This document shows positions 55,401 through 58,178 of a DNA stretch of 64,000 nt, piece by piece. This DNA comes from Nostoc sp. T09 (GTDB lineage: Bacteria; Cyanobacteriota; Cyanobacteriia; Cyanobacteriales; Nostocaceae): assembly GCF_002154695.1 (NCBI RefSeq), contig NZ_MTAV01000047.1:1-64000 (forward strand), given 5' to 3'. A model generated the notes under the pieces. That model was not told the DNA's origin, did no database searches, and saw only the letters and a list, made by a program, of their open reading frames with translations. Both the position numbers and the translations under genes were made by a program. Position 1 is the first letter of the stretch; every line of letters begins with the position of its first letter.

Positions 55401-57005
55401 TTACAGTTCACCTGTAGCCAGCATCTGGATGATGCGCGGTGTTCCAGGGTCGAACCCGGCCAAATCCCAGGAAAGTGGATCTTGAGGATCTACCAAGGTA
55501 ATGTTGTAAGGTGCAAGGGTAACATACACTGCCTTGGCATTGGGATTTACCTTCTGACGGTAGTGTGCTAATGCTTGACTTGGATGCTTAGACCCAGCCC
55601 ATGACTCATTATCAGTCCAAAAGCATACTACATCTGCTTTGAACTTGTTCTTAATCATCCAGTCGTAAGCTACAGAAGCATCTGTTCCACCAAAGTTTTG
55701 GTTACTAGCTTTGCGAAGTGCAGAACTAAAACTATCTTTGGCAGTGATACCTAATTCCCTAAATTCGGTAGCAAAGCCGCGAATCATGTAGTTTTTCTCT
55801 GCCTTTGCTGTTACCAGCGCCATTGCAGTAGCAATTTCACAGCAACTTAAGCCTACTGAATCAACCGCACTCCAAGACATGGAGCCAGAAACATCCACAG
55901 CGTGCATGAATACTTTGCCTGTAGGTTGCACGACATCAAAAGACAGTTCCACTGCCTTTTCTAAGATGTCTACAATCCGAGATACTGGTTCCCAATTCTT
56001 CTGGCTACGTCCTAATTTGCCACCAGATTGATAAGTTTTGAGGGCTTTCAAAACATCAATTGGATGTATGCGACCTTTACGCAGATGTTCTTTGTTGTTG
56101 AGAACTGCTTCTACTCGTAAAATATTGGCACTTTCATCAGCTCGTAACACACCCAGTTCTGTCAAAGAACCAAGATTACGCAGCATTGCACCTATTGGCA
56201 TTTCTTGGAAAAGCAACTGCCAAGCTTGTTTATCCATCTTGCCCACAGGTGCAGCCATTTCATGAGTTAGGCGACCTTGAGCGATCGCTGTATGGGTTTC
56301 GTTAGGATTCCGTTTGAGCCACTCATACCACCAAATCTGCGCCAATGCTTCAGAAGGGATATCTGCTGGCAAATCTTCCCAACCTTTAACTACCCACTCA
56401 AATAATTCACGGTGAGTTTCTGTAGGTGGTTTGACATGGAACAACCGCAATGCATCTCGGTGAGAGAAGCCTTGACGCTGTTGATATTTCAACAGTTGAT
56501 AAGCCAAACCTTTGACATCTTCCCGCGAAAGCCAAGTTTTCCCAGCTTCGCGCACTACCTTACCAAATCCCCGCAGCGATTTGGTATAGTTCAGCCATTC
56601 GTAGAAGTGGCTACCTGTGCGGATAACTTGCCCAAAGATTTCACCAAACGCCTTTTTGGCTTCTGGTGTTTCACCCATCGACAGCAGCACTAATGCCAAG
56701 ATAGGCGCACTGTTATTGATGGCGCGGCCATCGCTAGCATAGAGAATTTCCTCTGCAACATGCCCCGGATTCTCTGCAACAGCTTGTTTAACAACCATTA
56801 CAAAATCTTCAGTTAATTCTTGCTTTCCCGCGTAGTAAGTGCTTTTTGCTGTGCCAATCAACAGACAACGGCGCAGCATTTTCCAAATACCCGCATCAAA
56901 CATATACCCGCCGGAACGTCCTTTAATCATCTCTGCTTCCCGTCCGGGGATAGGCTGAGTTTGCGGTGTATTTGCTTTCTTTTTAGTAAAAAAATTGTAA
57001 TTCAT
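55401..57005 (-). CDS. rsr: Ro60/Rsr orthologue (TROVE and von Willebrand A domains)
   Basis: The 534-residue protein is a bacterial Ro autoantigen, a ring-shaped RNA-binding protein that binds Y RNAs and misfolded RNAs and works with nucleases such as PNPase. The TROVE HEAT-like ring spans residues about 25-340 (GGYMFDAGIWKMLRRCLLIG, FYEWLNYTKSLRGFGKVVREA). The vWA domain with MIDAS DVSGSM (about residue 370), FGGTDAS and the TDNESW strand follows. The frame extends to 57098, but that part overlaps an RNA gene. The ATG at 57005 has GGGAG 8 bases upstream. Six tRNA-like Y-type RNAs precede it on the same strand. Confidence 0.93.
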   Translation of the reverse strand: MNYNFFTKKKANTPQTQPIPGREAEMIKGRSGGYMFDAGIWKMLRRCLLIGTAKSTYYAGKQELTEDFVMVVKQAVAENPGHVAEEILYASDGRAINNSAPILALVLLSMGETPEAKKAFGEIFGQVIRTGSHFYEWLNYTKSLRGFGKVVREAGKTWLSREDVKGLAYQLLKYQQRQGFSHRDALRLFHVKPPTETHRELFEWVVKGWEDLPADIPSEALAQIWWYEWLKRNPNETHTAIAQGRLTHEMAAPVGKMDKQAWQLLFQEMPIGAMLRNLGSLTELGVLRADESANILRVEAVLNNKEHLRKGRIHPIDVLKALKTYQSGGKLGRSQKNWEPVSRIVDILEKAVELSFDVVQPTGKVFMHAVDVSGSMSWSAVDSVGLSCCEIATAMALVTAKAEKNYMIRGFATEFRELGITAKDSFSSALRKASNQNFGGTDASVAYDWMIKNKFKADVVCFWTDNESWAGSKHPSQALAHYRQKVNPNAKAVYVTLAPYNITLVDPQDPLSWDLAGFDPGTPRIIQMLATGEL

Positions 57006-57013
57006 GACTTCAT

Positions 57014-57034
57014 CTCCCGGCCCTTGCGGGCAAA
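57014..57034 (-). promoter_or_regulatory. Y-RNA-like hairpin in the rsr leader over the Shine-Dalgarno
   Basis: Transcribed from the minus strand: UUUGCCC, GCAA loop, GGGCCGGGAG. The stem GCCC/GGGC with GNRA loop and the UUG / CCG flanks copy the Ro-type motif of the upstream RNAs (only the final A of CCGA differs), and the 3' flank is the rsr ribosome-binding site (GGGAG, 57018-57014). Binding of Rsr here could block its own translation; this is inference. Confidence 0.6.
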
Positions 57035-57042
57035 AATGAAAG

Positions 57043-57193
57043 GTGGCAGGGCAGGATTTGTAGACGCGAAGCGGCTTCCCGAAGGGTACCTGCGACATCC
57101 CGCTTGGAAGGCGATAACCCTCATTCTTGGGCCTTTACAGACAAGGGGTGAACAAGGATGTTTTAGGCGCTCTACCACTGAGCTACCTGCCAC
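57043..57193 (-). ncRNA. tRNA-like Y-type RNA, copy 6 (decayed)
   Basis: Last copy before rsr. The 8-bp acceptor (GTGGCAGG/CCTGCCAC), D arm and a Gly-like anticodon loop CTTCCAA (anticodon UCC) are kept, with a 52-nt insert between anticodon-stem positions 28 and 29. The Ro-type motif is altered to CUUG...GGCCCA (CCGA to CCCA). The T-loop carries a 26-base insertion of a Nostoc repeat (about 57061-57086), and no CCA follows. It therefore looks like a degenerating member of the array. Confidence 0.8.
57061..57086. repeat. Interspersed repeat inserted in a T-loop
   Basis: The sequence GACGCGAAGCGGCTTCCCGA and its short flanks, a familiar Nostocales GC-rich repeat, sits between what should be adjacent bases of a TTCAAAT-type T-loop. 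Its own inverted symmetry (GAAGC / GCTTC) suggests a hairpin. Confidence 0.7.
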
Positions 57194-57262
57194 ATAAAGA
57201 ATTTTGGATTTTAGATTTTGGATTTTAGATTTTGAAATTAAATCTCAAATAAATTAAAATTT

Positions 57263-57404
57263 TGGCGGGTGGGGCAGGAATTGAACCTGCAACCTTTGAA
57301 TTAACGATAACCCTCAACTCGTCGGCCTTTTCAGGCAAGGTTGTGAAGCAAGGACTATGGGTAATTAACCCGTTCACTGCTCTACCAGATTGAGCTACCC
57401 ACCC
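57263..57404 (-). ncRNA. tRNA-like Y-type RNA, copy 5
   Basis: A 142-nt cloverleaf-like RNA: acceptor GGGTGGG/CCCACCC, discriminator G and encoded CCA, D arm GCTC...GAGC, T arm GCAGG-TTCAATT-CCTGC. The anticodon region is unlike the other copies: an extra hairpin GGGTTAATTACCC precedes the module, and the anticodon cannot be assigned safely (GUU possible). The module motif CUUGCCU-GAAA-AGGCCGAC is intact. It is the only copy with a 7-bp acceptor and G73. Confidence 0.8.
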
Positions 57405-57428
57405 ACATAAAAATTTCAATTTAGATTT

Positions 57429-57554
57429 TGGGTGGTGGGGCGGGACTCGAACCCGCGATGCTCGTCTTGCAAACGATAACCCTCAATTCTTCGGCCTTTG
57501 CAGGCAAGAGGTGAATAAGGATATTAAGCGCCTTACCACTTGGCTACCCACCAC
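57429..57554 (-). ncRNA. tRNA-like Y-type RNA, copy 4 (Cys-like body)
   Basis: A 126-nt RNA with acceptor GTGGTGGG/CCCACCAC followed directly by CCA, D arm GCC...GGC and T arm GCGGG-TTCGAGT-CCCGC. Deleting 51 nt between positions 28 and 29 leaves a perfect anticodon stem CTCGT/ACGAG around TTGCAAG (anticodon GCA, Cys). The insert holds CUUGCCU-GCAA-AGGCCGAA, with outer helix CCUUAUUC/GAAUUGAGG. No tRNA splicing system is known in bacteria for such an insert, so function as a tRNA is doubtful. Confidence 0.87.
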
Positions 57555-57582
57555 ATAACAATTCAAAATGCAAAATTAGGTT

Positions 57583-57708
57583 TGGGTGGCGGGGCGGGAT
57601 TTGAACCCGCGACCTCTCGAACCCAAATCGATAACCCTAATTCGTCGGCCTTTGCAGGCAAGGGGTGAACAAGGATGTTTAGCGCTCTACCACTGAGCTA
57701 CCCGCCAC
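57583..57708 (-). ncRNA. tRNA-like Y-type RNA, copy 3 (Pro-like anticodon)
   Basis: A 126-nt RNA: acceptor GTGGCGGG/CCCGCCAC then CCA, D arm GCTC-AGTGGTA-GAGC, T arm GCGGG-TTCAAAT-CCCGC. Without the 50-nt insert after position 28 the anticodon stem is CTCGA/TCGAG around TTTGGGT (UGG). The insert has outer helix CCUUGUUC/GAAUUAGG and inner motif CUUGCCU-GCAA-AGGCCGAC. This is the cleanest copy and a good seed for modelling. Confidence 0.88.
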
Positions 57709-57779
57709 ATTAAAAGTTATGAGTTGTGAGCTATGAGTGCTGAGTTTGGAATTTTTAACTCAGTACTCAGTACTGATTT

Positions 57780-57909
57780 TGGTGTGGCGGGGCAGGATTT
57801 GAACCTACGACCTTCCCGATTATGAGTCGATAACCTTCATTCTTCGGCCTTTTCAGACAAGGGGTGAACAAAGATGTTTTTGGCGCTCTACCACTGAGCT
57901 ACCCGCCAC
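57780..57909 (-). ncRNA. tRNA-like Y-type RNA, copy 2 (Met-like anticodon)
   Basis: A 130-nt RNA: 8-bp acceptor GTGGCGGG/CCCGCCAC, A discriminator and CCA; normal D arm; T arm GTAGG-TTCAAAT-CCTGC. Removal of 52 nt leaves stem CCCGA/TCGGG around CTCATAA (CAU). The insert shows compensatory change in its outer helix (CUUUGUUC with GAAUGAAG where copy 6 has CCUUGUUC with GAAUGAGG) and the motif CUUGUCU-GAAA-AGGCCGAA. Confidence 0.88.
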
Positions 57910-57973
57910 ATTAAAAGTTATGAGTTATGAGTGCTGAGTGAAAAATTCAAAGCTTAGTACTAATTTTGGTGTT
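57910..57973. repeat. Heptamer-like repeat between RNA genes
   Basis: The spacer between copies 1 and 2 contains GTTATGAGTTATGAGTGCTG-type units, also seen in the spacer at 57709-57779, the kind of short tandem repeat common in Nostoc spacers. Confidence 0.6.
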
Positions 57974-58107
57974 TGGTGTAGCGAAGCAGGATTTTCACCT
58001 GCATCTCCAGAAATGGATCAAGGGTGTTTAAGTTATTTGCGATAACCCTCGATATTGTCGGCCCTTACGGGCAAGGTGGGCGCTCTGGTATTTGAGCTAT
58101 CCGCTAC
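57974..58107 (-). ncRNA. tRNA-like Y-type RNA, copy 1 (module permuted)
   Basis: First RNA after the promoter, 134 nt. Acceptor GTAGCGGA/TTCGCTAC with A and CCA, D arm GCTC...GAGC. The T-loop is TGAAAAT, lacking the TTC needed in a true tRNA, and the D-loop lacks GG. The Ro-type hairpin CUUGCCC-GUAA-GGGCCGAC comes first, and the outer helix follows it as UCGAGGGU...ACCCUUGA, reversed in order compared with the other copies, where the outer strands flank the hairpin. It is the least tRNA-like copy. Confidence 0.82.
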
Positions 58108-58149
58108 AGAAGAAAGCTTACTCCTTTTGGAACATCGGCTTGTATTATT

Positions 58150-58178
58150 AATGTAGTATGCGTGTTACTAGATGTCAA
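58150..58178 (-). promoter_or_regulatory. Sigma-70-type promoter of the RNA array and rsr
   Basis: On the minus strand TTGACA (58178-58173), 17 bases, then TACATT (58155-58150). Transcription would start about 35-40 bases before the first tRNA-like RNA. No terminator is seen between the array and rsr, so this promoter could drive all seven genes. Confidence 0.75.

Follow-up and report, generated by a model that had tools for sequence, protein, structure and literature searches.

The array and its gene

A stretch of 64,000 nucleotides (nt) from the 8.25 Mb genome of Nostoc sp. T09, referred to here as the window, carries on its minus strand a gene for Rsr, a homologue of Ro60, and directly upstream of it a tandem array of six RNA units at 57038-58109 in which the arms of a tRNA are combined with a module resembling a Y RNA (Table 1). 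All six share the same parts: an acceptor stem (7-8 pairs), a D arm, a short stub of the anticodon stem, a helix of the Ro type, the conserved element GGUUAUCG, and a T arm. The Y-RNA-like module occupies the position of the anticodon loop, and GGUUAUCG comes after its stem. A preliminary description of this DNA had reported six tandem minus-strand RNAs with tRNA acceptor, D, and T arms, which covariance-model matches bear out, and a stem reading UUG-NNN-GNRA-NNN-CCGA in all copies. The helix, UUG-NNN-GNAA-NNN-CC(G/C)A, is indeed present in all six, but the wording is exact only for units 1-5, unit 6 having CCCA instead. A long stem lies beneath the Ro helix in units 2-6 (e.g., CCUUGUUC/GAAUGAGG), while in unit 1 the 5' strand of this second stem is missing and the region pairs, in the fold of the unit, with a strand lying more 3'. 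A CCA occurs close to the 3' end in units 1-5. Within its T loop, unit 6 contains a 26-nt insert, ACCCTTCGGGAAGCCGCTTCGCGTCT (57062-57087), which is present in a single copy in the window and which we take to resemble the short repeats of Nostocales.

Table 1. Positions of the array, its gene, and associated elements in the window
Feature	Position	Strand	Basis and remarks
rsr, Ro60 homologue (TROVE + vWA), 534 aa	55401..57005	-	Pfam; PDB matches
Hairpin resembling the Ro helix, UUUUG-CCC-GCAA-GGG-CCGGGA	57015..57035	-	rsr leader; overlaps Shine-Dalgarno GGGAG, 57014-57018
Unit 6 (tRNA-Y chimera)	57038..57195	-	T-loop insert; CCCA replaces CCGA, helix 57128-57144
Unit 5 (tRNA-Y chimera)	57261..57407	-	Extra hairpin between D arm and module; Ro helix 57322-57338
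Unit 4 (tRNA-Y chimera)	57427..57556	-	Ro helix 57491-57507; model match, Rfam tRNA score
Unit 3 (tRNA-Y chimera)	57581..57710	-	Ro helix 57645-57661; model match, acceptor pairing
Unit 2 (tRNA-Y chimera)	57779..57911	-	Ro helix 57844-57860; model match, acceptor pairing
Unit 1 (tRNA-Y chimera)	57973..58109	-	Variant first-position type; Ro helix 58058-58074; covariance-model match
Promoter-like site, TTGACA-N17-TACATT	58150..58178	-	Consensus scan; upstream of array and rsr

The start of rsr lies 32 nt past the model match of the last unit, so the placement of the array directly upstream of a TROVE/vWA gene, as first described, is confirmed. Its product matches PF05731 (TROVE, 66.7 bits) and PF25045 (vWA_Ro60, 134.9 bits) and aligns with Deinococcus radiodurans Rsr (2nvo, E 2.3e-74) and Xenopus Ro60 (1yvp, E 1.1e-71). 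The nearest rsr relatives among the matches listed, at 95% each, are from Calothrix membranacea FACHB-236, Nostoc carneum NIES-2107, and Nostoc linckia FACHB-104, and nearer records may have been left out of these matches. Besides H187, the residues K170 and R174 also have a role, and equivalents of all three are retained in the window protein (structure-record alignment, numbering counted by hand). The corresponding pattern K-Y-X2-R-X12-H was found in 93 of 95 rsr loci, the remaining two being broken reading frames. Two reviews report H187 as essential for Y RNA contact (PMC4030889, PMC11277228).

A promoter common to the array and rsr had also been proposed. The promoter-like site itself is conserved: 57 of 73 loci have a site with at least 10 of 12 consensus letters no more than 120 nt upstream of the first unit, a score that 67 of 3800 random 120-mers reach, and the 30 sites printed mostly read TTGACA-N17-TACATT. 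The window scan revealed no terminator-like site on the minus strand between array and rsr. Because promoter and spacing are both conserved, the array and rsr are likely co-transcribed, which is the part of the proposal that stays a deduction. Between the promoter and unit 1, at 58110-58145 and at the same place in relatives, is a conserved leader (ACAAGC...AAAGGAGTTAGC-like) that contains a Shine-Dalgarno-like stretch with no evident open reading frame.

The Rfam tRNA model (RF00005) scores units 4 and 5 at 41.4 and 50.0 bits (gathering score 29), and ARAGORN calls no tRNA in the window. Single-sequence folds of units 1-5 are mildly better than those of shuffled sequences (z -1.2 to -3.6), and minimum-energy folds miss parts of the conserved design. 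Despite these mild z-scores, the strong conservation and covariation across genomes described below indicate that the six units are not a product of chance. No further chimera was found in the same genome, where the other matches to the first covariance model (R1), with E up to 1, are tRNA-sized at 78-95 nt. Elsewhere in the genome (contig C97, 91174-94253; locus L009), 17 tRNAs form an array of their own, and 8 of them have CCA at or near the end.

Linkage to rsr and array layout

Model R1 was built from units 2-4 only, since the first MAFFT alignments misplaced units 1, 5, and 6, and a second model (R2) was built from the best 150 of 283 R1 matches. The R1 search of 145 Nostocaceae genomes was made independently of rsr, and the rsr protein was searched in the same 145. 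With a genome counted as unit-bearing at R1 E < 1e-12 (ordinary tRNAs match at about 1e-8), 73 genomes have units and rsr, 9 have an rsr match only, 63 have neither, and none has units only. The association has a Fisher p of about 1e-31, a value to be read with the nonindependence of the genomes in mind. The expectation in the preliminary description that a covariance model would find matches next to rsr in Nostocales thus agrees with the result, all 73 unit-bearing Nostocaceae genomes having an rsr match. In some of the 73 the gene is split or partial (G038, G088, G096, G106, G115). Six of the nine genomes with rsr only have a partial or fragmentary gene; the others are G126 with a divergent rsr (33% identity), G055 with two upstream units that score below the E < 1e-12 line, and G085, which is weighed below.

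Beyond the family, R2 matches 65 of 243 genomes at the order level (E 1e-9, the weakest including 80-nt, tRNA-sized matches) and 53 of 291 at the class level (1e-11). Of the loci that R2 matched outside Nostocaceae, a subset of 39 was chosen for analysis. In 37 of these model-picked loci, rsr follows downstream in the same orientation, at a distance from the unit used of up to 250 nt in 33 and of 1999 nt in the widest case. The exceptions are L313, where only 1.7 kb of downstream sequence is covered, and L320. In Picosynechococcus sp. PCC 7002, rsr resides on plasmid pAQ7 with three unit matches upstream.

Layout was compared in 95 loci with an identified rsr start, which are mostly from Nostocaceae and include several chosen for their known rsr; L148 (divergent rsr) and L149 (partial) were excluded. 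At least one upstream unit is present in 91 of them, which together with the 37 of 39 model-picked loci upholds the claim that genes of this type adjoin rsr. In the other four, L127 and the outgroup loci L186, L187, and L188, none was found. Arrays contain 1 to 11 units, the maximum occurring in G187, and eight loci have a single unit found. Spacers between units range from 0 to 516 nt, and the distance from the last unit to the rsr start codon is 31-32 nt in 58 of 91 loci. In 168 of 322 units, most of which are middle ones, a CCA lies within positions 8-13 past the T stem. The units also keep their places: in arrays of at least three, the nearest unit in another genome belongs to the same position class (first, middle, or last) for 238 of 285 units, a sibling from the same array is closer for just 19 of 285, and for first units the closest relative in another genome is likewise a first unit in 60 of 69 rows. 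Units are therefore orthologous by position, and the members of an array have stayed distinct instead of becoming alike.

A unit-like match is present downstream of rsr as well in 37 of the 95 loci, and among the 14 printed, those readable end to end have no D arm. Examples just 3' of rsr (L076 2902-3019, L077 4725-4842, L078 4714-4831) consist of an acceptor stem, a T arm, and a hairpin variable arm without a D arm, and end in a run of T. No such unit was seen behind rsr in the window.

Covariation and the Ro-type helix

Two alignments were assessed for compensatory change. Alignment A6 (89 rows; the module is absent from about 20, largely ordinary tRNAs from L188 and L186) has 93.9% of cells paired, double changes in 28 of 35 pairs, and covariation of 0.498 versus 0.177 when shuffled and at most 0.106 when slid. 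For A5, the best 150 R1 matches (147 distinct), 97.2% are paired, 28 of 35 pairs have double changes, and covariation is 0.267 versus 0.151 shuffled and at most 0.094 slid. Within the Ro helix of A6, the loop-adjacent pair covaries (CG 31, UA 22, UG 12), as does the G-C pair next to the bulge (GC 41, AU 22). A further unit alignment, A7, holds 150 of 153 R2 matches, and the three weak ones stand outside the unit counts.

Of 322 units, 208 contain the exact motif UUG-N3-N4-N3-CCGA, and in 180 of these 208 the loop is GNRA. Relaxing the motif to C/A-CGA, with U/C at the second place and longer loops, raises the count to 237, and a still looser pattern raises it to 277; GGUUAUCG is present in 268. 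Arrays uniformly unlinked to rsr with an unconserved CCGA/UUG motif, the outcome that would have spoken against the preliminary description, are thus not what was found: linkage is strong, and the exact motif recurs at the frequency just given. The bulged C has been described as the primary site for Ro60, one that bacterial Y RNAs retain (PMC4030889), and is placed within GGUCCGA (PMC11277228). The metazoan and simple bacterial Y RNAs share the bulged-C helix with the units, GGUCCGA/UUGACU there (UUGACU as given in the preliminary description, GGUCCGA also in PMC11277228) and AGGCCGA/UUGCCU here. In contrast to those RNAs, the two strands come in the opposite order here, and a terminal loop caps the helix, which therefore does not lie at the RNA ends: the 5' and 3' ends of a classical Y RNA form the Ro stem, whereas those of the units pair as an acceptor stem.

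Topology relative to YrlA and tRNA

Among the closest known relatives in architecture is YrlA (RF02553), which likewise joins a tRNA-like domain (D, T, and acceptor arms) to a Ro-binding stem and is encoded beside rsr in some bacteria (PMC8394870). YrlA is open at the Ro stem and has a hairpin-capped acceptor, whereas the units have an open acceptor and a capped Ro stem, mostly with GNRA. The best RF02553 match in the window reaches 50.6 bits where the gathering score is 69, and it and the others arise solely by bridging two adjacent units. That a circular permutation superposes YrlA on tRNA is already known (PMC11472068). With tRNA (RF00005) the units have in common the acceptor, D, and T arms and a UUC-R-A T loop, and units 4 and 5 exceed its gathering score, but the anticodon loop is replaced by a module of about 50-70 nt and ARAGORN does not call them. 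Cyanobacterial tRNA arrays are similar in being tandem, partly CCA-encoding tRNA-type genes, and in G126 and G403 they adjoin rsr; they differ in that ARAGORN finds no decoding tRNA in the window or in the chimera loci L183, L185, L197, L199, L200, and L284.

Whether the acceptor strands pair within a unit or across neighbouring units distinguishes the two layouts. The 7 nt after each T stem were paired with the 7 nt before each D arm for 229 adjacent pairs of units. Pairing within the unit is 7/7 in 413 of 458 values (inner units counted twice) and pairing with the neighbour, in the YrlA order, in 74 of 229; within-unit pairing is better in 149 of the 229, ties in 67, and loses in 13. In the window alone, most acceptors are too alike for this discrimination. 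The opposite result was obtained upstream of the Ro gene of Gordonia phage Cashline, where the stretch of 16-22 nt that separates a T arm from the following D arm folds into a capped acceptor hairpin, with 7 of 7 pairs in one case and 6 of 7 in the other, and the acceptor within the R2 unit has just 4 of 7. The test therefore separates the two forms. The cyanobacterial units, on the strength of these pairings, are a circular permutation of YrlA, and the phage Ro locus displays the YrlA form with its order of T arm, capped acceptor, and D arm, an order that the cyanobacterial units do not have. Both the permutation and the retention of tRNA ends with a Ro-type helix at the anticodon arm had been put forward in the preliminary description, and both hold up as sequence-based predictions.

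At Cashline (L285, 1500-1960), two tandem YrlA-type RNAs with tetraloop-capped acceptors lie directly upstream of the phage Ro-like gene. The R2 matches there were considered as phage chimeras and rejected, since they are tandem YrlA of the opposite topology bridged by the model. The viral contig L283 is mixed, with 6 of 7 pairs at 2 of 6 T-to-next-D steps (at most 40 nt) and 2-4 at the other four when taken at a fixed offset; further capped hairpins in L283 were read by eye only. The exact module pattern gave no match in viral contigs. There are 349 phage records with a Ro relative in all and 55 plasmid records outside Picosynechococcus, and Cashline and L283 are the phage and viral loci analysed for RNAs.

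In the rsr tree (20 rows), the 14 chimera-associated proteins fall on one side of a fully supported branch, and the phage, viral-contig, G126, and outgroup proteins fall on the other (midpoint root, two long branches). Outgroup loci L186 and L187 have simple Y-like hairpins with GGGUUAUC, found by eye and then folded. Outgroup YrlA matches are weak (38.4 bits in L188; 26.4 and 25.5 in L148), all under the gathering score, and ordinary tandem tRNAs in L188 give bridging matches of up to 28.2 bits. Positions 1-5500 of L188, from genome G403 (whose record lists 7% contamination), contain rsr, the 38.4-bit match, and 20 ordinary tRNAs with three apparent chimeras among them. Two of these chimeras were found by R2 and one by eye, and the acceptor pairing of one rests on its fold, its D arm having been missed by the script. 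Both permutants thus seem to coexist at this locus. In the class of G403 (18 genomes), R2 matches 11 at 1e-7, with hits that are all tRNA-sized except the G403 unit, and no other genome there showed a chimera. In G126 (L148), the divergent rsr lies inside an array of 19 tRNAs, with the two weak YrlA matches and CCGA/GGUUAUC-like pieces nearby.

A Ro-helix-like hairpin in the rsr leader

A hairpin resembling the Ro helix overlaps the Shine-Dalgarno sequence of rsr (Table 1). Under a strict definition, 78 of 92 cyanobacterial rsr leaders contain it. Of 9200 random 45-mers drawn from these loci, which may themselves overlap real units or the leader, 117 do. A further control, in which 242 of 513 open reading frames with a Shine-Dalgarno sequence have the hairpin, is not clean, the loci containing many rsr copies. 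The hairpin is kept where no unit was found (L127) and where the nearest unit is more than 1.2 kb off (L106, L114). Its covariation is modest, with 21 double-change cells versus 7.9 when shuffled (52 leaders chosen from 92). This leader hairpin is newly described here, and its position on the Shine-Dalgarno sequence suggests that rsr may be autoregulated.

Weighing the explanations

Taken together, the linkage, the conserved helix, and the acceptor pairing make it very probable that the six units are tRNA-ended, circularly permuted Y RNAs for the Rsr encoded downstream. Several observations weigh against this reading. Ordinary tRNAs account for some of the covariation that A6 shows in its acceptor, D, and T arms, and both A6 and A5 were fitted to the model and so lean towards its structure. 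The relaxed motif is missing from 85 of the 322 units and the still looser one from 45, and unit 6 of the window departs from the pattern in its CCCA and its T-loop insert. Linkage has an exception in each direction, with a full-length cyanobacterial rsr and no unit found upstream in G085 (L127) and, in G298, an eight-unit array (L320, 3231-4863) with no rsr within about 6.3 kb downstream. The leader hairpin has double changes in just 3 of 8 pairs, a number reached by 168 of 500 shuffles, and its covariation of 0.256 is nearly equalled by slides of +1 and +2 (0.226 and 0.244).

Among the alternatives, an array that acts purely in cis, as a structured tRNA-like 5' leader that controls rsr and from which units are never released, is improbable. 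The near-constant gap between the last unit and rsr and the Ro-like hairpin covering the ribosome-binding site would both be at home in such an arrangement. The fully paired acceptor stems of most units, however, are hard to reconcile with it, as are the CCA near the end of 114 of 148 middle units, the variation in unit number and spacer length, and the position of the apparent G403 chimeras among ordinary tRNA genes. It is more improbable still that the true RNAs are ordinary YrlA, each assembled from one unit's 3' half and the following unit's 5' half, even though the Rfam matches bridge window units in just this manner and tandem YrlA does exist in a phage Ro locus. Acceptor pairing within units far exceeds that across them (the window acceptors alone being too alike to decide), loci with a single unit and long, variable spacers do not suit such bridging, a GNRA loop closes the Ro helix inside the unit in most units with the exact motif, and ordinary tandem tRNAs are bridged by the same Rfam model. 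The least credible explanation, very nearly negligible, is that these are tRNA genes in decay or with introns, such as the remains of a tRNA array, that have no Ro function. The T-loop insert of unit 6, the divergent-tRNA array elsewhere in the genome (L009), and the tRNA arrays flanking divergent rsr in G126 and G403 are what such decay might leave, but the module is conserved across families and covaries, its presence tracks rsr, and no normal anticodon loop is left. Group I introns are known from cyanobacterial tRNAs, and these are far longer than the insert in the units.

Proposed function and significance

If the units are permuted Y RNAs, the 5' and 3' ends of each would form a tRNA acceptor stem alongside D and T arms, and the anticodon arm would be extended into the GNRA-capped, bulged Ro-binding helix. 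A single transcript from the upstream promoter may bear both the array and rsr, as the promoter and spacing indicate, and tRNA-processing enzymes would probably free the tRNA-like ends to yield a number of Y RNAs together with an rsr mRNA whose leader would be about 35 nt long. Since tRNA-type ends allow several Y RNAs and the mRNA to be cut from one transcript, they offer a simple reason for the array. Each Y RNA could grip Rsr through the Ro helix and present a tRNA-like domain at its other end to PNPase or another enzyme, by analogy with YrlA, whose tRNA-like domain is described as having such a role towards PNPase (PMC8394870). Free Rsr would probably repress its own translation at the ribosome-binding-site hairpin until Y RNAs bind it. 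The wider proposal, which we offer tentatively as possible rather than probable, is that a second Y RNA architecture extends across Cyanobacteriia, derived by permutation between YrlA and the tRNA-ended form, with tRNA enzymes releasing the Y RNAs and rsr mRNA, Rsr repressing itself via the leader hairpin, and the array serving as both effector set and titration switch.

The literature searched, which did not cover the specialist Y RNA papers, so that an earlier description is possible, contained no account of cyanobacterial Y RNAs or of a tRNA-ended, permuted topology. If correct, this reading would give tRNA-like bacterial Y RNAs a second layout and would show that an entire functional RNA has been circularly permuted in nature next to a single protein family. 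A profile of the family would allow annotation pipelines to name such RNAs. This reading would also provide a test of the relationship between Y RNA and tRNA and, in laboratory cyanobacteria such as Picosynechococcus sp. PCC 7002, would open to experiment the questions of why Ro needs tRNA-like partners and whether Ro regulates itself.

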